Below are positions 1,567 through 9,918 of a stretch of 40,852 nucleotides of DNA, piece by piece. Every line of letters starts with the position of its first letter. The first letter of the stretch is position 1. The translations under genes and the position numbers were made by a program. Origin of the DNA: Gammaproteobacteria bacterium (GTDB taxonomy: Bacteria; Pseudomonadota; Gammaproteobacteria; Ga0077536); contig JAUIFX010000017.1 in the NCBI GenBank assembly GCA_030429865.1, positions 1-40,852 of the forward strand, given 5' to 3'. The notes under the pieces were generated by a model, which ran no database searches, was not told the DNA's origin, and saw only the letters and a list, made by a program, of their open reading frames with translations.

Positions 1567-1593
1567 AAAAAAAAGTCCCGGCCAGGCCGGGAC
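1567..1593 (-). terminator. Rho-independent terminator of the 1635-1979 gene
   Basis: Read on the minus strand, the 9-bp GC stem GTCCCGGCC/GGCCGGGAC (1575-1593, one-base loop as written, in practice a larger loop) is followed directly by eight T residues (1574 to 1567). This is a textbook intrinsic terminator 42 bp past the stop of the leftward gene. On the plus strand there is no T tract after the stem, so it is directional. Confidence 0.9.
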
Positions 1594-2183: not shown

Positions 2184-2672
2184 TCATCGTGCGTCCTCGA
2201 GCAGGCGTCCGAGGCGGCGCGCGAGCGCCGGACCGGCTTCGGCGCGCAGCGTGCCGACGAGCAGCCCCGCGTGGTTGTCGAGGCGCAGGTCACGGCGTCC
2301 GAGCGCGAGGGCCTGAGCGCACGCGCGGTAGACGATGAACGGGTTGTCGCTGCGTGCGAGGCGCCCCGCGGCAGTGAACAAGCGCGGCAACAGGATGCGC
2401 GCAGCGGGTTCGTTCGCGACACATTCGAGGAGCAGGCAGGCGGTGGTGGCGTCGTCTTCCGCGAGCGCGCCCTCGATCTGCTCGCACAGCGTCTCGCACG
2501 CGCACACCGAGCGCGACATGCCGGCGCGCGCCGCGGTACGCAGCGCGTCCACGGTGCGTGCGACGAGCGCGCCGAGGGCCCGCCGCCTGGTGTCCGCGGC
2601 AGGTTCCGCCTCCGCGACCGGCGGGTGGGACGGCGCCGTGGCGACGACGTGCAGTACCGGCGGCGCACTCAT
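2184..2672 (-). CDS. Conserved-operon hypothetical helical protein with clustered cysteines
   Basis: Not recognised. It has 162 residues: a Pro/Ala-rich N-terminus of about 25 residues, then a mostly alpha-helical body. Cysteines cluster at C57, C59 and C63 (CACETLC), with more at C79 and C84 (CLLLEC) and one near residue 116. No membrane segment or signal peptide is seen. Its ATG overlaps the stop of the upstream Usp gene as ATGA, so it is the fourth translationally coupled member of the dabB-dabA-usp unit. That context suggests a role linked to inorganic-carbon uptake or its stress control, perhaps redox or metal sensing by the cysteines, but this is only inference. Confidence 0.75.
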   Translation of the reverse strand: MSAPPVLHVVATAPSHPPVAEAEPAADTRRRALGALVARTVDALRTAARAGMSRSVCACETLCEQIEGALAEDDATTACLLLECVANEPAARILLPRLFTAAGRLARSDNPFIVYRACAQALALGRRDLRLDNHAGLLVGTLRAEAGPALARRLGRLLEDAR

Positions 2673-3709
2673 GATGACGCTCCCTGCCGTGCGCCGGCTG
2701 CCGCGCGCGCGACGGCCAGGTCGTCCGGCACCGCCCGCACGGGCGAGAGGAAGCCCGGCGGCTTGAGCGTCAGGACCGGGATGTCCACGCGGGCGAGGAT
2801 CCGTTCCGCGGTGTGGCCGATGAACTGGCCGGGCGCCGCGCCGCTTGCCAACGTGCCCATGACCAGGAGATCGGCACGGTGCCGATCGGCGCTGGCCGCG
2901 ACCACCGCCGAGGCTTCGCCTTCAATCAGCTGGGTGTTCAGTGCGACGCCGCCATCGACCTCCCTCACCCCGGCTTCCAGCTCGGCCAGCCAGCGCGCAT
3001 GCAGCATGCGCTGGTTGCCGATGTAGCGGTCGACGGAGGCATGGGCGAGCGTCGTGCGTGGATGGGTGAGCAGGTCGGCGGCGTAGGGCTGCCACGCGTG
3101 CACGAGATGCACCTGTGCGGCGTCGAGGCGCGCGAACAACAGCGCCGTGAGCGCGAGCTGCAGGCTGAACCGGGACATCGTCTCGGGCTCGGTGTAGAGC
3201 TCGCGGTCGACGGCAACCAGCACGTTCTGGTAGCGCGCCGGTCCATTCGTATCCATCACCCACAACGCGCACGGGCACTTCCGCGCCAGGTGCATGTCGG
3301 TCGGCGCGAGGCCGCCGCGTGCCGCGGAGTTGGTCACGTGGACGACGAGGTCGAAGCGCCGTTCGAGCACGAGCCGGGTGATGGCGAGGAAGGTCGTGCC
3401 TTCGCTGAGTTCGACCGTAAGTGGCACGAGCGCGCGCAGTGGTTCGGCGATCGCCTCGAGCCGCTCGCGCGCGAGCGTGCGCCGCACCGCGATCAGTTCC
3501 TGTGCGACCGGGTCGACGGCGAGCTCGGCCGGCGGCGGCTCGATGACGTCGCACAGGGTCAGTTCCGCGCCTTGCTCGACGGCCAGGCGGGCGATGCGAT
3601 CGAGGCAGTGCCAGGCGCCTTCCGCGCTCGCGACCAGGCGTGTATCGACGAGCACCAGGACCTTGCGATAGCCGAGTGGCGGGTTGAGCGGATGCAGGTT
3701 GTCGTTCAT
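2669..3709 (-). CDS. Tandem universal stress protein, UspE-like
   Basis: 346 residues with two Usp (Rossmann-like) domains, about 13-155 and 160-310. Domain 1 begins YRKVLVLVDTRL and domain 2 begins YQNVLVAVDRELY. The end of domain 2 carries VMGTLASG...FIGHTAERIL. Compared with the ATP-binding pattern G-x2-G-x9-G-S/T, the second Gly is Ala and the final Ser is His, so ATP binding by domain 2 looks impaired, as in UspE-like members. Its ATG overlaps the dabA stop (ATGA), and its stop overlaps the next gene the same way. Usp proteins act in the cytoplasm as stress-linked signalling proteins; coupling to DabA suggests control of carbon uptake, which is inferred. Confidence 0.9.
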   Translation of the reverse strand: MNDNLHPLNPPLGYRKVLVLVDTRLVASAEGAWHCLDRIARLAVEQGAELTLCDVIEPPPAELAVDPVAQELIAVRRTLARERLEAIAEPLRALVPLTVELSEGTTFLAITRLVLERRFDLVVHVTNSAARGGLAPTDMHLARKCPCALWVMDTNGPARYQNVLVAVDRELYTEPETMSRFSLQLALTALLFARLDAAQVHLVHAWQPYAADLLTHPRTTLAHASVDRYIGNQRMLHARWLAELEAGVREVDGGVALNTQLIEGEASAVVAASADRHRADLLVMGTLASGAAPGQFIGHTAERILARVDIPVLTLKPPGFLSPVRAVPDDLAVARAAAGARQGASS

Positions 3710-6402
3710 GCGGCTCCCTCCAGGTTGGGATGAGTTGCGGGTACGGGCGCGGGAATCGCCTCCCAGCGACCCCCCGGCAGGTAGGCGAACCAGGCGTTCC
3801 GTTCGCGATCGAGTGCGACGAGTCGCAGCCAGCGGTGGTCGAACAGCGCGCGCAGGTCGGCGTTTGCATCAAGCACCGCGTCGATGCGCGCGACGGGCGC
3901 CTCGATCACCGAGAGCAGGCGCAGCGGTTGGTGATACAGGCGGCCGTCGTCGGCGCGGACGGACTGCTCGGGCAGGCCGAGGCGCAGGTCGCCGCCTTCG
4001 CCCTGGATCACTGCGCATCCGCCGATGATGTTCTGCGTCACCTTGCTGCCACTGCCCCAGGTCGCGTTGTCGACGCTCGAGAAGTAGTACTGGGCATTGA
4101 TCCACTGCGCGACGATCAGCGGCGCGCTCATGATCGCGCTGAGCACCTGGCCATCGGCGTCGCGCGTCCAGTCGTAGGAATGCAGGAACGTGCGGCCGTC
4201 GAGATCGCACCCCAGGGTCGTCGAACGAGGCGCGCAGACGAACGCCGCATTGCCGGCGAGACCCCATTCGGGCCGCGTCTCGGCGCCATCCGCGGCGCGC
4301 CAGGCGAGCGCGGCGGGCGTCGTGCCGAGGCGCGGAGCGCGGCGCGCCCGGTTCGCCTGTCCGGCCGCTTCGAGCGCGCGCCTGAGCGCGGCCGCGTCGC
4401 GCGCGTGGCTGGCGGGCAGGTTGTCATCGAACACGGTCACGTGGTCGGTCGTGGTGTCGTGCAGCGCGGCGACCACGCGCGTGTCGTCGGGCAGCTCGAT
4501 GCCGTGCGCGGCGAGCCGCCGGCGCACGCCCGGCCGCTCGAGTATGCGTGCGAGCAGGCGCGCGTTGGTGCCACCTTCGTGACCGCCGCAGGCACCGCAG
4601 TCGAGCGCGGCAGCGTAGGCGTTGTTGGTCGTCGAGGCGGCATGGCCGCACAGCACGATCAGCCGCGCGAACGGTGCGCTGAGACCCGTGGTCTCGAAGA
4701 AACTGCGCGCGACCGCGAGCTGCTCGTCGTCGTCCAGGGCCGGCATTACGTCGGGCGCTTTGCCGCCGAGCGCCGGTACATGGAGGTGCGGCACGCGTGG
4801 CTGTGGGGCGGGCGGCCGTACCGCGTCGCGCAGCAGCGGCCAGACCGAGAGCAGTCCGAAGCCGTCGACGACGCCGAAAGTCGCCAGCGGATGCCGCTTG
4901 AGCGCGCGCCGCAGCGCCGGCAGCAGGCCGGCCAGCCGCGCGCGTGCCGACAGCCGGTGCCGCGCACGCGCGGGCAACGCCGGCGCGACCTGCTCGTGCG
5001 CGCCGTGCGCCGGTGCCAGCAACACCGGGCAGTGTGTCGAGACGCTGCCGTCGAGCCGTGCGTAGCTGACCGCGACGCCGAAGAAGCCGGCATAGCCGAA
5101 CGTCTCGTAACCGCCCTGCGCCTCGAGCGCGCGCCGCAGCGGTTCGGAGCGCACGTCGATACACAGGGCGAGCTGCGCGCGCGGCCGCGCGCTGCTCGTT
5201 TGCGTTGCCGGCGCGCGCGCCGCGAGCTGGCCGACGAGGGCGTCGCGGTAGGCGAGTTCTTCCGCCTCCAGGCAGCGCAAGGCGAGCCAGCCGTCATCCT
5301 GCGCGCATAGCGTCTTCGCGAGCGTCGCCATCTCCTCCGTCGTGGCGCGCTCGAGGGCCGCCGGTGCGATGCCGTGGAAGGCGGCGAAGGCGGCGATCGC
5401 CGACGCGGCCGGCGGCGGCTCGTGCGTCGCGGCGTGGGGCAGGTGTGCGGCGAGACCGTGCACCTCGCAAGGCAGGTCGTGCGCGAGCGCGAGATCGATC
5501 CACAGCAGCCGTTCGGTGACGAGCAGCACCGCGAGCAGGTCGAGCAGCGTGGCTGGATGTGCCGCGGCGCGCGGCGAGGCGGCGTACCAGGAGACGAACG
5601 CGGCCCAGCCCTTGAGCGCGAACAGCTGCTGGCACAAGTAGTCCTCGCGTCGCTCCGGGGCGAGTCCGAGCGTCCCGAGAGCGCCGAGCACGGCGGTCTC
5701 GGCGGCATCCGGCAGGAGCGCCGCGCGCGGGAGGTCCAGCGCGCTCGCGGCGTCGGCAAGCAGCGGCTCGTTTGCCATGTGGTGGCGGAACGCCGCGTAG
5801 AGGCCCTCTCTTGCGCCCGGCATGCACAGTCCGCCGTCGTCGCCCAGCAGGCAGGCCGGAACGAAGGCCCCGACCAGCGCGTCGCGCCGCGCGCACAGAC
5901 CGGCATCGAGGCGGGCGTCGAGCCAGGCGAGCAGCGTGGTATGTTCGACCGGCCACCCGGCCGCACCCTCGTCGCTCCCCAGGCCGGCGCGCTCGCACGC
6001 AGCCGTTGCCGCCGCCAACAGGGCGGGCGCCGGGACCAGCGCGTGCGGCGCACGCTCGACGCGCGCGAACAGGTAGTCGGGGAGCGTGTGCCGGTTGCCG
6101 TCGATCACCAGGGCAGGGGTGCTCGATGCCGTCGCGATCGCCGCTCGCAGGCGCGCGCGGTCGAGCTGCCCGCGGGCGAGGCGCTCGCGATACGTATCGA
6201 GCGGCAGGTGGCCGCGTCCGCCGGACAGGCGTTGTGCGCTCGCGATCGCGGCATCGAAGTCCAGGTGCTCGAATCCCTGCAGCGGGTTGCTCGCGACGAA
6301 GGCGTCGAGCGGGAAGAAGCGGGGCAACCGCGCGGCCGCGGCGGTGATGGCCGCGTGCAGCTGTTGCTCCATGGCGTGGGCGTCGGCGACGGGTGCGGTC
6401 AT
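3706..6402 (-). CDS. dabA: DabA, zinc-dependent inorganic-carbon transporter subunit (DUF2309)
   Basis: 898 residues, a little longer than the roughly 830 of Halothiobacillus DabA. DabA is a cytoplasmic, beta-carbonic-anhydrase-like zinc protein that with the membrane partner DabB drives one-way hydration of CO2 to bicarbonate using the ion gradient. The four zinc ligands are visible: C414 and D416 (LCIDVRSEP), H587 (CGHAAS) and C602 (LDCGACGG). Their spacing (2, 171, 15) equals that of C351/D353/H524/C539 in the characterised protein as I recall it. The N-terminal FFPLDAFVASNPLQGFE segment is also typical. The ATG at 6402 was chosen over upstream in-frame starts because it begins the conserved region and has a GAGGAGA ribosome site; it lies 20 bp after dabB. 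The stop overlaps the usp ATG. Confidence 0.96.
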   Translation of the reverse strand: MTAPVADAHAMEQQLHAAITAAAARLPRFFPLDAFVASNPLQGFEHLDFDAAIASAQRLSGGRGHLPLDTYRERLARGQLDRARLRAAIATASSTPALVIDGNRHTLPDYLFARVERAPHALVPAPALLAAATAACERAGLGSDEGAAGWPVEHTTLLAWLDARLDAGLCARRDALVGAFVPACLLGDDGGLCMPGAREGLYAAFRHHMANEPLLADAASALDLPRAALLPDAAETAVLGALGTLGLAPERREDYLCQQLFALKGWAAFVSWYAASPRAAAHPATLLDLLAVLLVTERLLWIDLALAHDLPCEVHGLAAHLPHAATHEPPPAASAIAAFAAFHGIAPAALERATTEEMATLAKTLCAQDDGWLALRCLEAEELAYRDALVGQLAARAPATQTSSARPRAQLALCIDVRSEPLRRALEAQGGYETFGYAGFFGVAVSYARLDGSVSTHCPVLLAPAHGAHEQVAPALPARARHRLSARARLAGLLPALRRALKRHPLATFGVVDGFGLLSVWPLLRDAVRPPAPQPRVPHLHVPALGGKAPDVMPALDDDEQLAVARSFFETTGLSAPFARLIVLCGHAASTTNNAYAAALDCGACGGHEGGTNARLLARILERPGVRRRLAAHGIELPDDTRVVAALHDTTTDHVTVFDDNLPASHARDAAALRRALEAAGQANRARRAPRLGTTPAALAWRAADGAETRPEWGLAGNAAFVCAPRSTTLGCDLDGRTFLHSYDWTRDADGQVLSAIMSAPLIVAQWINAQYYFSSVDNATWGSGSKVTQNIIGGCAVIQGEGGDLRLGLPEQSVRADDGRLYHQPLRLLSVIEAPVARIDAVLDANADLRALFDHRWLRLVALDRERNAWFAYLPGGRWEAIPAPVPATHPNLEGAA

Positions 6403-6422
6403 GGCGTCTCTCCTCGGCAGGG

Positions 6423-7898
6423 TCAGTTGGCGCGCCGTGCGGCACGCAGTGCGGTGACGAGCGGACCGCCCGGCGCGGCGCGCCCGGGCGGCTCGGCGCG
6501 GGCGAGGCGCACGAGCAGGGTGTGCACGGGTGCGGGCAGCTCGACGCGCGTGGCGCGCACGAAGGCGAGCAGCGACAGTGCGCCGATCATGGCGCCGACG
6601 AGATGCGTGCTGGGGGCATGCCCGGCCAGCGCGGCGGCGTCGATTGCGCCGGTGAGCGCGAGGTGTACCGCGGCGGCCGCGAGCGCCGCGGGCACCAGCA
6701 CGACGAGCGTGCGCAGTGCCGCGGTGCGCAGGCAGGTGCGGCGCCATGCGAGCATCAGGGCTTCGATCGCGAGCGTCAGCGCGAAGCTCAGCAACACGAG
6801 GTCCGCCAGGGCGAGGTGCGACGTCCAGGCTGCGACGAAGAAGGCGACGCAAGGCAACAGCAGCAACCACTGCGCACCGCGCGCGGGCGCGGCGAGCGTG
6901 CCGGCGCCGGGAGCGGTCACCTCGCTGCCCGCGCGTAGGAACGCCTGCGCCTTGAATGCACCGTGGGCGAGGATGTGGAACAGGGCGTGGGCGTACGCGC
7001 CGAGGCCGCACTGCACGAGCATGTAGCCCATCTGCGCGACGGTCGAACCGGCGAGGCGGCCTTTGACGTCGACGCGCACGAGCGCGATCGCGGTACCGCC
7101 GACGACTGCCGCGGCGCCGCTCGCCAACAGCGCGAACAGCACGACCGGCGTGGCCGAGAGCAGCGGCGCGAACTTGATCGCCGCGATGCCGCCCGCGTTG
7201 ACAAAACCGGCGTGCAGCAGCGCGCAGACCGGCGTCGGTGCGGCGGTCGATGCGAGCAGCCAGCGATGGGTCGGCAGGCCGGCGCTGCGCACCACCACGG
7301 CAACGACCAGCGCGAGCGCGGCGAACAGCAGCGGGGTGGCCACGTCCGCGCCGGGTTCGAGCTGTACGGCAATACCCTCGAAGCCGCTCTGACCGCTGGA
7401 CATCACCACCAGGCCGACCGCCAGCAGCAGGGCCGTGTCACCGATACGGAAACTCGTGCGTGCGCGCCCGGCGGCCGTCAGCGCCTGCCCGGGCGTCGCG
7501 GTATGCGCGAGCAGTTCGACGACCACGCGCGAGGCGAGCAGCCAGGCCGTGGCGAAGAGCAGCATGTCGTCGGTGCCGGCGCCGAGCAGGGTGGCCGCGA
7601 CGAGGAGCACGACGTGCCGTGCGTACACGTCGAGGCGGTCGTCGCCGCGCATGTGGCGTACGGAGAAGGCGAGCGCTGCGAAGGCGAGCGTCGCGCCGAG
7701 CGTGAGCAGCACGAGGGCGGTGTAGGTGAAGGCATCGACGGGCAGGACGAGCGCGGCGGTCAACGCGCCGAGCGCGCTCAACGCGGCAAGCCGGCTCGCC
7801 CGGCGCAGTGCCAGCAACGGTGCGGCGGGTGCGCTTAGCGCGATGAGCAGAAAGCCCGCAACGACGAGCGCGAGGGCACACTGGACGAGGTCTGGCAT
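6423..7898 (-). CDS. dabB: DabB, NuoL-like membrane subunit of the inorganic-carbon transporter
   Basis: 491 residues, very hydrophobic throughout, with many predicted membrane helices, in the proton-conducting antiporter (NuoL/MrpA) family. Diagnostic segments are the charged helix region around SAGLPTHRWLLAS, the broken-helix stretch APTPVCALLHAG, and STVAQMGYMLVQ followed by HILAHGAFKAQAFL, which supply the Lys/His residues used for ion movement. It is the first gene of the dabB-dabA-usp-unknown unit, with an AGGAG ribosome site 9 bp before the ATG. A LysR gene is divergent from it, so regulation by that protein is likely. DabB couples the ion gradient to CO2 hydration by DabA at the inner membrane. 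Confidence 0.94.
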   Translation of the reverse strand: MPDLVQCALALVVAGFLLIALSAPAAPLLALRRASRLAALSALGALTAALVLPVDAFTYTALVLLTLGATLAFAALAFSVRHMRGDDRLDVYARHVVLLVAATLLGAGTDDMLLFATAWLLASRVVVELLAHTATPGQALTAAGRARTSFRIGDTALLLAVGLVVMSSGQSGFEGIAVQLEPGADVATPLLFAALALVVAVVVRSAGLPTHRWLLASTAAPTPVCALLHAGFVNAGGIAAIKFAPLLSATPVVLFALLASGAAAVVGGTAIALVRVDVKGRLAGSTVAQMGYMLVQCGLGAYAHALFHILAHGAFKAQAFLRAGSEVTAPGAGTLAAPARGAQWLLLLPCVAFFVAAWTSHLALADLVLLSFALTLAIEALMLAWRRTCLRTAALRTLVVLVPAALAAAAVHLALTGAIDAAALAGHAPSTHLVGAMIGALSLLAFVRATRVELPAPVHTLLVRLARAEPPGRAAPGGPLVTALRAARRAN

Positions 7899-8044
7899 GG
7901 CGCAAATCTCCTGGAGCGATTCACCCGAGCGGTGACGGCGCGCAGTATGCGCAGTGCAGCAAAATTGTTGAAACGAATAAAAAAACTAAATATCATCGAA
8001 AAACAAGATAAATAAGCCGGCGCGGTTCGCGCCCGGAGCACCTC
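7899..8044. promoter_or_regulatory. Divergent promoter region, dabB / LysR gene
   Basis: A 146-bp gap with an AT-rich core (about 7960-8015) that stands out from the GC-rich surroundings, as expected for back-to-back promoters. It contains an imperfect dyad TATC-N12-GATA (7991-8010) of the size LysR-type proteins use. No single -35/-10 pair stands out clearly enough to assign. Confidence 0.55.
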
Positions 8045-8899
8045 ATGCAGCTCGAACTGGACCTGTTGCGGACCTTCGTCGCGATCGTCGAGACGGGTGG
8101 CTTCACGCGTGCCGCCGAGCGTCTGAACAAGACACAGTCGACGGTCAGCGCGCAGATCAAAAAGCTCGAAGAACAACTCGGGCAGACGCTCATCGCGCGC
8201 GACACGCGCAACCTCGCCTTGACCGCGCACGGCGAACTCCTGCTCGAGCGCGGGCGCGAGCTGTTGCGCTTGAGCGACGATCTCCTTTCACGTCTTGCCG
8301 AGCCCGAGCTCGAAGGCCGCGTGCGTCTGGGCACGCCGGAAGATTTCGCGACCAGCCACCTGCCGCAGGTGCTGGCCGCGTTCAGCCGCGCGCATCCGCG
8401 CGTGCGGCTCGAAGTGACCTGCGAACTGACGCGCCGGCTCGAGCGGCAGTTCCGTGCCGGCCACCACGACCTGGTCCTGCTCAAGCGCGATCCCATGGGA
8501 CCTTCGATGGGCACGCGGGTCTGGCGCGAACCCCTGGTATGGGTCTGCAATGCCTATGGTGCCGCGCTGCTCGGCGAGGAAGTGTCGCTGGTGGTGTCCC
8601 CGGAGCCCTGCGTCTATCGCGAGCGGGCCGTCGGTGCCCTCGAAGCGGCCGGCCGCCCGTGGCGTATCGCCTACCAGAGCACCAGCCTCGCAGGTTCGCT
8701 GGCCGCGGTGCGCGCGGGGCTCGGAGTGACCATCCTGCCACGCGACATGGTGCCGGCCGGCTACCAGGTCATCGGACCGAACGAGAACATGCCGGACCTG
8801 CCGGATACCGAGATTGCCCTGTGCATGAAGGCGCGCCGGCCGGTGCAACCCGTGGTGCGCCTCTACGAGCACATCGTGCAGGCCCTGGAGGCGACGTGA
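8045..8899 (+). CDS. LysR-family regulator divergent from the Dab operon
   Basis: 284 residues. The N-terminal helix-turn-helix (LLRTFVAIVETGGFTRAAERL, then QSTVSAQIKKLEEQLG) is followed by a type-2 periplasmic-binding-like effector domain from about residue 90. LysR proteins commonly control the gene divergent from them, here dabB-dabA-usp. That would parallel LysR/CbbR-type control of carbon-fixation genes, but the effector is unknown. The start at 8045 is the first ATG before the HTH. Alternatives are low-quality; the family call is firm and the target is inferred from position. Confidence 0.88.
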   Translation: MQLELDLLRTFVAIVETGGFTRAAERLNKTQSTVSAQIKKLEEQLGQTLIARDTRNLALTAHGELLLERGRELLRLSDDLLSRLAEPELEGRVRLGTPEDFATSHLPQVLAAFSRAHPRVRLEVTCELTRRLERQFRAGHHDLVLLKRDPMGPSMGTRVWREPLVWVCNAYGAALLGEEVSLVVSPEPCVYRERAVGALEAAGRPWRIAYQSTSLAGSLAAVRAGLGVTILPRDMVPAGYQVIGPNENMPDLPDTEIALCMKARRPVQPVVRLYEHIVQALEAT

Positions 8900-8918: not shown

Positions 8919-8960
8919 CGAAAAAATCGAACTCAATTGTCGTGAATTGCGACTTTTTCG
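8919..8960. promoter_or_regulatory. Nested dyad upstream of the NhaR-like gene
   Basis: Outer arms CGAAAAAATCG (8919-8929) and CGACTTTTTCG (8950-8960) pair at 10 of 11 positions. Inside lies a perfect CAATT-N6-AATTG dyad (8934-8949). The element occupies the AT-rich gap between the two LysR genes, 46 bp before the second start. It could be the autoregulatory site of the NhaR-like protein; a weak terminator for the first LysR gene is the alternative. Confidence 0.5.
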
Positions 8961-9006
8961 CAGGCGTCGCCGACGCCCAGAATGCGCGCCAACGGGAGCC
9001 ACGGCG

Positions 9007-9918
9007 ATGCGCCACCTGAACTACAACCATCTGCTCTATTTCTGGACCGTGGCCCGCGAAGGCAGCGTGGCGCGCGCGGCCGACACCCTGCATCTCGCGC
9101 CGCAGACCATCAGCGGCCAGATCAAGGCGCTCGAGAGCGTCATCGGCAAGCCCCTGTTCCGGCGCGCGGGGCGCGCGCTCGCGCTGACCGCCGCGGGACT
9201 CATCGTGCAGCAGTATGCGGACGAGATCTTCACCCTCGGCGCGGAACTCAGCCGGCGCATGAAGAGCGACGACGCCGGTATGCCGGCCACCTTCAACGTC
9301 GGCATCGTCAATTCGATCTCGAAGCTCGTCGCGCGCGAAATCCTGCAGCCGGCGCTCGCTTTGGAATCGGACCTGCGCCTCGTGTGCCGCGAGAGCGAGC
9401 TCGAGAAGCTGCTCGCCGACCTCGCCGTGTCGCGTCTCGACCTGGTGCTTTCCGACCGGCCTATCCCGGCCGGCCTGAGCGTGCGTGCCTACAACTATCC
9501 GCTAGGTGAGAGCGAAGTCGCCCTGTTCGCGCCGGCGCGTCACGCGCGGCGCTACCGCCGGCGCTTCCCGGCCAGCGTCGACGGCGCGCCATTGTTGCTG
9601 CCGGTCCACGAAAGCGCGCTGCGGCGGCACGTCGACGACTGGCTCGAAACCCAGGGCGTCAAGCCGCGCGTGATCGCGGAGTTCGAGGACAGCGCGCTGA
9701 TGAAGGCCTTCGCGGCCGCGGGCGAGGCGTTGTTTCCGGCGCCCGTCCAGCTCACCGATCACCTGGCGCGCATGTACGATGCCCGCCCGGTCGGCGTGCT
9801 GACCGGCGTCAGCGAGCGCTACGTCGCGATCTCGCCCGAGCGGCGCCTGCACCACCCGGCCGCGCGCCGCATCATCGACCGCGCGCGCGTGCGGCTGGAC
9901 AGCGCCGGGACCGGCTGA
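9007..9918 (+). CDS. LysR-family regulator, NhaR-like
   Basis: 303 residues. The N-terminus MRHLNYNHLLYFWTVAREGS with LAPQTISGQIKALE is the hallmark of NhaR, the LysR-type activator of the Na+/H+ antiporter gene nhaA in enteric bacteria. The C-terminal effector domain runs to the end. The ATG at 9007 was chosen over an upstream in-frame start because NhaR homologues begin here and the lead is Arg-rich and unconserved. No nhaA gene is next to it: it ends 7 bp from the convergent HpaB gene. Its targets here are therefore unknown, and it may serve Na+, pH or other stress responses. Confidence 0.85.
   Translation: MRHLNYNHLLYFWTVAREGSVARAADTLHLAPQTISGQIKALESVIGKPLFRRAGRALALTAAGLIVQQYADEIFTLGAELSRRMKSDDAGMPATFNVGIVNSISKLVAREILQPALALESDLRLVCRESELEKLLADLAVSRLDLVLSDRPIPAGLSVRAYNYPLGESEVALFAPARHARRYRRRFPASVDGAPLLLPVHESALRRHVDDWLETQGVKPRVIAEFEDSALMKAFAAAGEALFPAPVQLTDHLARMYDARPVGVLTGVSERYVAISPERRLHHPAARRIIDRARVRLDSAGTG

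Follow-up and report, generated by a model that had tools for sequence, protein, structure and literature searches.

The published DAB structure is that of a gated, membrane-potential-dependent enzyme, for which no regulator is named. The first-pass annotation of the locus presented here had taken characterised Dab systems to consist of two subunits, a description that is incomplete: DAB1 of Halothiobacillus includes a third, small membrane protein (PMC13144422), and in Staphylococcus aureus mpsAB is followed by mpsC, a gene that occurs in staphylococci only and whose deletion is without effect (PMC6689103); the same organism provides the precedent for the use of Dab-family systems by heterotrophs (PMC6689103). 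Here, we present a dabB-dabA pair that is followed by two further genes, usp and a gene that we refer to as “orphan”, all located in a gammaproteobacterial window of 40,852 nucleotides, i.e. the whole stretch of DNA that was analysed.

Organisation and conservation of the operon

The four genes form an apparent operon on the minus strand, apparently co-transcribed, and are listed with the neighbouring features in Table 1. The coordinates, strand and lengths given for them by the first-pass annotation agree with the sequence in every case, as do the ATGA overlaps that it had placed at the dabA-usp and usp-orphan junctions.

Table 1. Features of the dab locus, in window coordinates.
Feature	Position	Strand	Description
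intrinsic-terminator-like hairpin, strong	1575..1593	-	8-pair stem and T run; probable transcript end
orphan	2184..2672	-	helical protein, 162 aa; CxCx3C and three further cysteines; no family match
ATGA overlap: usp stop / orphan start	2669..2672	-	seen in the sequence; kept in the congener
usp	2669..3709	-	tandem UspE-type universal stress protein, 346 aa; PF00582, 80.2 bits; UspE best in PDB; degenerate nucleotide motif
ATGA overlap: dabA stop / usp start	3706..3709	-	seen in the sequence; kept in the congener
dabA	3706..6402	-	beta-carbonic-anhydrase-like subunit, 898 aa; PF10070, 718.7 bits
dabB	6423..7898	-	NuoL-like membrane subunit, 491 aa; PF00361, 114 bits
operator- or promoter-like element TCGTTTCAACAAT	7964..7976	-	lysR-dabB gap
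LrhA-type LysR	8045..8899	+	divergent; PF03466 and PF00126; likely operon regulator
NhaR-like LysR	8947..9918	+	NF008284, 236.1 bits (cut-off 219); possibly same control region

The overlaps have to be read against the habits of the genome: in a sample of ~343 kb, to which a crude gene caller was applied, ATGA-type overlaps join 18 of 144 same-strand neighbour pairs (about 12.5%), and two consecutive ATGA overlaps occur twice, the window's own case counted. Such overlaps are thus ordinary here, and a single one means little. A purine-rich stretch, judged by eye, lies upstream of each of the dabA, usp and orphan starts, so that coupling is likely, yet no prerequisite for translation; the four-gene unit as a whole is probably translationally coupled.

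In congener G001, the single congener examined, the four-gene order and both overlaps are intact, with dabA divided over two contigs. The dN/dS values against this congener are 0.24 for orphan, 0.07 for usp, 0.16-0.21 for dabA, 0.16 for dabB and 0.009 for the LrhA-type lysR; the DabB proteins are 92% identical, and the orphan alignment contains zero indels across 162 codons. These substitution ratios place all four operon genes under purifying selection, and, since order, overlaps and low dN/dS are kept in the sister species, usp and orphan are real genes; the two species are close, and so their shared order is weak evidence for selection on the order itself. The earlier description of the two genes as stably co-translated holds for a conserved, probably coupled four-gene unit within one genus and does not extend beyond it, as both orphan and the link between Usp and dab are found in two sister species only.

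A possible fifth cistron, the 114-aa open reading frame at 1635-1979 on the minus strand, was rejected because it is frameshifted in the congener; it is probably no gene, and the strong terminator follows it. Beyond the operon, at 199-1530, lie an HpaG-like FAA-hydrolase gene and an HpaR-type MarR regulator, which suggest an aromatic-acid catabolic region.

Catalytic residues of DabA and probable metabolic role

The DabA score of 718.7 bits stands above the PF10070 cut-off of 25, and the membrane subunit that matches PF00361 (Proton_antipo_M) with 114 bits is encoded 20 bp upstream of dabA, a distance that confirms the earlier reading. The residues of a Cys2His zinc site and of an Asp-Arg dyad are present and invariant in the alignment (C414, D416, R418, H587 and C602); they parallel C351, D353, R355, H524 and C539 of DabA2, in the same order and with equal spacings of 173 and 188. 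A working DAB operon is the best explanation for these features.

In this genome, which is 96% complete, our search for the RuBisCO large subunit returned no match, and one beta-carbonic anhydrase is present; from these two results, DabAB is likely to supply ordinary carboxylation reactions with bicarbonate, in a probable heterotroph. A role in a carboxysome or in the Calvin cycle was also considered and is unsupported, there being no RuBisCO match. The genome contains a second dabA (G000:C126:65735-68434, locus L001), which is followed by dabB, i.e. in the inverted dabA-dabB order, and which reads CMDEREE around the first zinc ligand, where the window DabA has CIDVRSE.

Control region and placement among dab operons

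The divergent LrhA-type LysR probably controls the operon: among 80 dab loci, 16 have a LysR of this type divergent to dabB, and 10 have an NhaR-type LysR in that arrangement. In the window, the two types stand in tandem, instead of either one as at other dab loci. In the gap between lysR and dabB, the motif TCGTTTN4AAT (TCGTTTNNNNAAT) occurs once per locus, always in this gap and in the same orientation, in both congeners and in six sphingomonad dab loci (window 7964-7976, minus strand; L095:9917; L099:4473; L101:4392; L102:4436; L121:4511; L127:4522; L174:4508), with 0.02 occurrences expected by chance in the window; it is a candidate element, probably a LysR operator or a promoter element.

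The window DabA, which shares no more than 51% identity with its relatives in the tree, groups with the DabAs of the same six sphingomonad loci (SH-aLRT 93) on an end branch of 1.03 that is flagged as long; as the tree is a quick one, in which no starred set contains the window DabA, this placing is only moderate. It is independently supported by the shared motif and by the LrhA-type LysR, which is 55-60% identical to five of the six sphingomonad LysRs.

The position directly after dabA

In order to compare the genes that follow dabA, the next same-strand open reading frame was taken from each of 132 distinct dabA loci (L001-L177), the products were clustered, and representatives were searched against Pfam. 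With counts that hinge on sampling and on automatic start calls, the position is occupied by PII in 16 of the 132 loci, by DUF6671 in another 16, by MnhE in seven, by a CysD-like gene in three, by dabB in six (the inverted order) and by a carbonic anhydrase in two; the PII gene overlaps dabA by exactly 4 bp in 10 of its 16 loci. On the DabA tree, PII requires no fewer than six changes and DUF6671 ten, so that partners have been gained and lost repeatedly: as read from this tree, the position after dabA is a partner slot that is refilled time and again. DUF6671 is also the neighbour of dabA at five loci from the family to which the window belongs, and looks like an unstudied DAB partner.

That a PII gene is present in some carboxysome-type dab loci is already known; no paper that treats the position as a whole was found among those consulted. 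We consider this recurrently refilled position the point most worth following: if its occupants act on DabA, they would constitute a set of comparable regulators of energised CO2 capture, and their inclusion in transfers of DAB systems into other hosts would be justified. Since the slot recurrently holds partners, some of them, like PII, of a known regulatory kind, a regulatory module at this place is a reasonable idea, and the Usp-based module for CO2 uptake that the first-pass annotation had put forward is plausible.

A stronger form of this idea would have Usp and orphan replace PII as a post-translational control module of the energised carbonic anhydrase, DAB complexes as a class then having an exchangeable regulatory partner that is encoded right after dabA. 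We regard this form as unlikely. The slot in the six sphingomonad loci holds PII in two and a CysD-like gene in one, meets the contig end in one and has no clear partner in two; with PII in just two of six, the replacement of PII by Usp is an interpretation, not a demonstrated event.

The universal stress protein

The usp product belongs to the universal stress protein family (PF00582, 80.2 bits over two stretches, against a cut-off of 24) and does not match PF00543 (PII). It had been described as UspE-like, which is apt insofar as it is a tandem Usp with UspE as its best PDB matches; its 79.7 bits against the UspE equivalog NF008380 lie below the cut-off of 227, and the protein is UspE-like, not UspE. 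The ATP motif G-2x-G-9x-G-(S/T) is departed from, the C-terminal domain reading G-TL-A-9x-GHT; this degenerate nucleotide motif resembles that of PA1789, and certain Usps with a degenerate motif nevertheless bind ATP.

Relatives of this Usp are common in the class, yet none adjoins dabA, although we had expected one at the related dab loci of the class. In the 132 other dab loci, dabA never has a Usp gene as its immediate neighbour, and a Usp lies within 6 kb in six of the 80 loci of DabA relatives from many phyla, in none directly adjacent; since roughly half of the loci had flanks of just 1.5 kb, and some contigs end early, a rare adjacency could be missed. This confinement of the link to one genus, the commonness of ATGA overlaps in the genome and the lineage-restricted, dispensable mpsC of staphylococci (PMC6689103) all agree with usp and orphan being passengers, i.e. 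stress genes on a LysR-driven transcript that are useful under low CO2, alkaline or energy stress and exert no action on DabAB. The overlap, order and purifying selection kept in the congener argue against mere carriage, albeit between two close species, as do the recurrent partners that the slot holds elsewhere; we judge that the two genes may well be passengers, with a likelihood somewhat under one half.

The nearest relatives of the Usp in the family (41% and 36%) are located away from dab and without orphan, which points to a Usp that was recruited from elsewhere. The two proteins could then target one another or a third component, for instance as a stress pair, with a place inherited as the dab operon was built; the same relatives show that Usp and orphan are not a stand-alone unit either, no such pair having been found away from dab among them, and of all the explanations weighed here we hold this one to be the least probable. 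In the congener (L185:1352-4059), a paralogous tandem Usp gene overlaps by ATGA a gene of the Na+/H+-exchanger family with a TrkA-N domain.

The orphan protein

The cysteine cluster in orphan, previously given as CxCx4C, is in fact CxCx3C (C57-x-C59-x3-C63); together with C79, C84 and C118, it makes six cysteines, all invariant in the congener. No family match was obtained in Pfam, NCBIfam, PHROGs or the PDB sequences. In whole-genome searches, orphan is present in two congeners only and absent from the other 56 of 58 relatives; it is absent from 397 other genomes among 398 genomes of the phylum, and from plasmids. A scan of 84,980 species genomes with six patterns found nothing beyond the congener; it needs near-exact words of eight residues and is poorly suited to a small protein that has diverged, so that more weight goes to the negative result of the whole-genome searches. 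The proposed search for the 162-residue protein beside dabAB in other genomes has thus returned the congener only, which comes near to the outcome that the first-pass annotation had itself named as speaking against its proposal, i.e. a protein found only at this locus.

The protein is predicted to be all-helical, in a low-confidence model (pLDDT 63) built from two sequences; its top Foldseek matches, all with E above 0.001, are to designed alpha-helical repeats, and the model is too weak for a fold, such as a HEAT/ARM-like repeat, to be assigned. Six conserved cysteines, three of them clustered, next to a DabA with a Cys2His zinc site would also suit a role in assembly, in which orphan, with or without Usp, would act as a chaperone, either loading zinc into DabA or aiding its meeting with DabB. 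DAB2 and MpsAB need no such gene to function in E. coli, orphan matches no metal-binding family, and conservation between two sequences says little; we find this role improbable.

A tentative model for the two additional genes

We tentatively place first the reading in which Usp regulates DabAB with orphan as an adaptor, a reading to which we give somewhat less than an even chance and which is hardly ahead of that of usp and orphan as passengers. DabAB would use the membrane potential to provide bicarbonate for ordinary carboxylation; the tandem Usp would be a soluble partner that tunes DabAB activity to the stress or energy state, in the manner proposed for TeaD on TeaABC and known for SbtB on SbtA; the helical, cysteine-containing orphan would serve as an adaptor that joins Usp to the DabAB complex, or as a redox- or metal-responsive piece of it; and the ATGA coupling would hold the protein levels in step.

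Regulation by Usp is favoured by the anatomy of the operon and the purifying selection on its four genes in the congener, by the intact catalytic residues of DabA, and by the recurrent partners in the slot, with a PII gene that often overlaps by 4 bp. It is further favoured by sphingomonad kin that share LysR and the upstream element, two of them with PII in the slot, by the precedents of TeaD, SbtB and Rv2623, the last a further Usp that partners a transporter, together with the overlap of Usp and exchanger genes in the congener, and by the lack of a RuBisCO match beside a single beta-carbonic anhydrase. It is weakened by a link between Usp and dab in one genus only, by the ordinary nature of ATGA overlaps in the genome, by the degenerate nucleotide motif, by the dispensable mpsC and by the low-confidence fold of orphan.

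Comparison with known systems

DAB2 of Halothiobacillus neapolitanus (DabA2-DabB2) is a pair of the same families with equally spaced catalytic residues; it is the two-subunit complex of a chemolithoautotroph, whereas the window operon has two extra cistrons in a genome where no RuBisCO was found. The sphingomonad LysR-dabBA operons (Novosphingobium, Sphingomonas) share with it the divergent LrhA-type LysR, the TCGTTTN4AAT element in the gap and the nearest DabA branch, but have neither an adjacent Usp nor an orphan, and carry PII (2/6) or a CysD-like gene (1/6) after dabA. The dabA-PII operons of many gammaproteobacteria, Legionella and Mycolicibacterium likewise have a partner directly after dabA, with the 4-bp overlap in 10 of 16; their partner is PII (PF00543), which is unrelated to Usp.

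Two further systems are likened to the operon by description, not by sequence. MpsABC of Staphylococcus aureus combines, in a heterotroph, a Dab-family pair with a lineage-restricted downstream gene, although mpsC is dispensable and lies behind a weak terminator (PMC6689103). TeaABC-TeaD of Halomonas elongata includes a universal stress protein that is thought to regulate a transporter (PMC5549992), but the transporter is of another kind. Set beside these systems, the dabB-dabA-usp-orphan operon is real and belongs to a known kind of operon, of which it is a lineage-restricted variant, a local version of a common theme.
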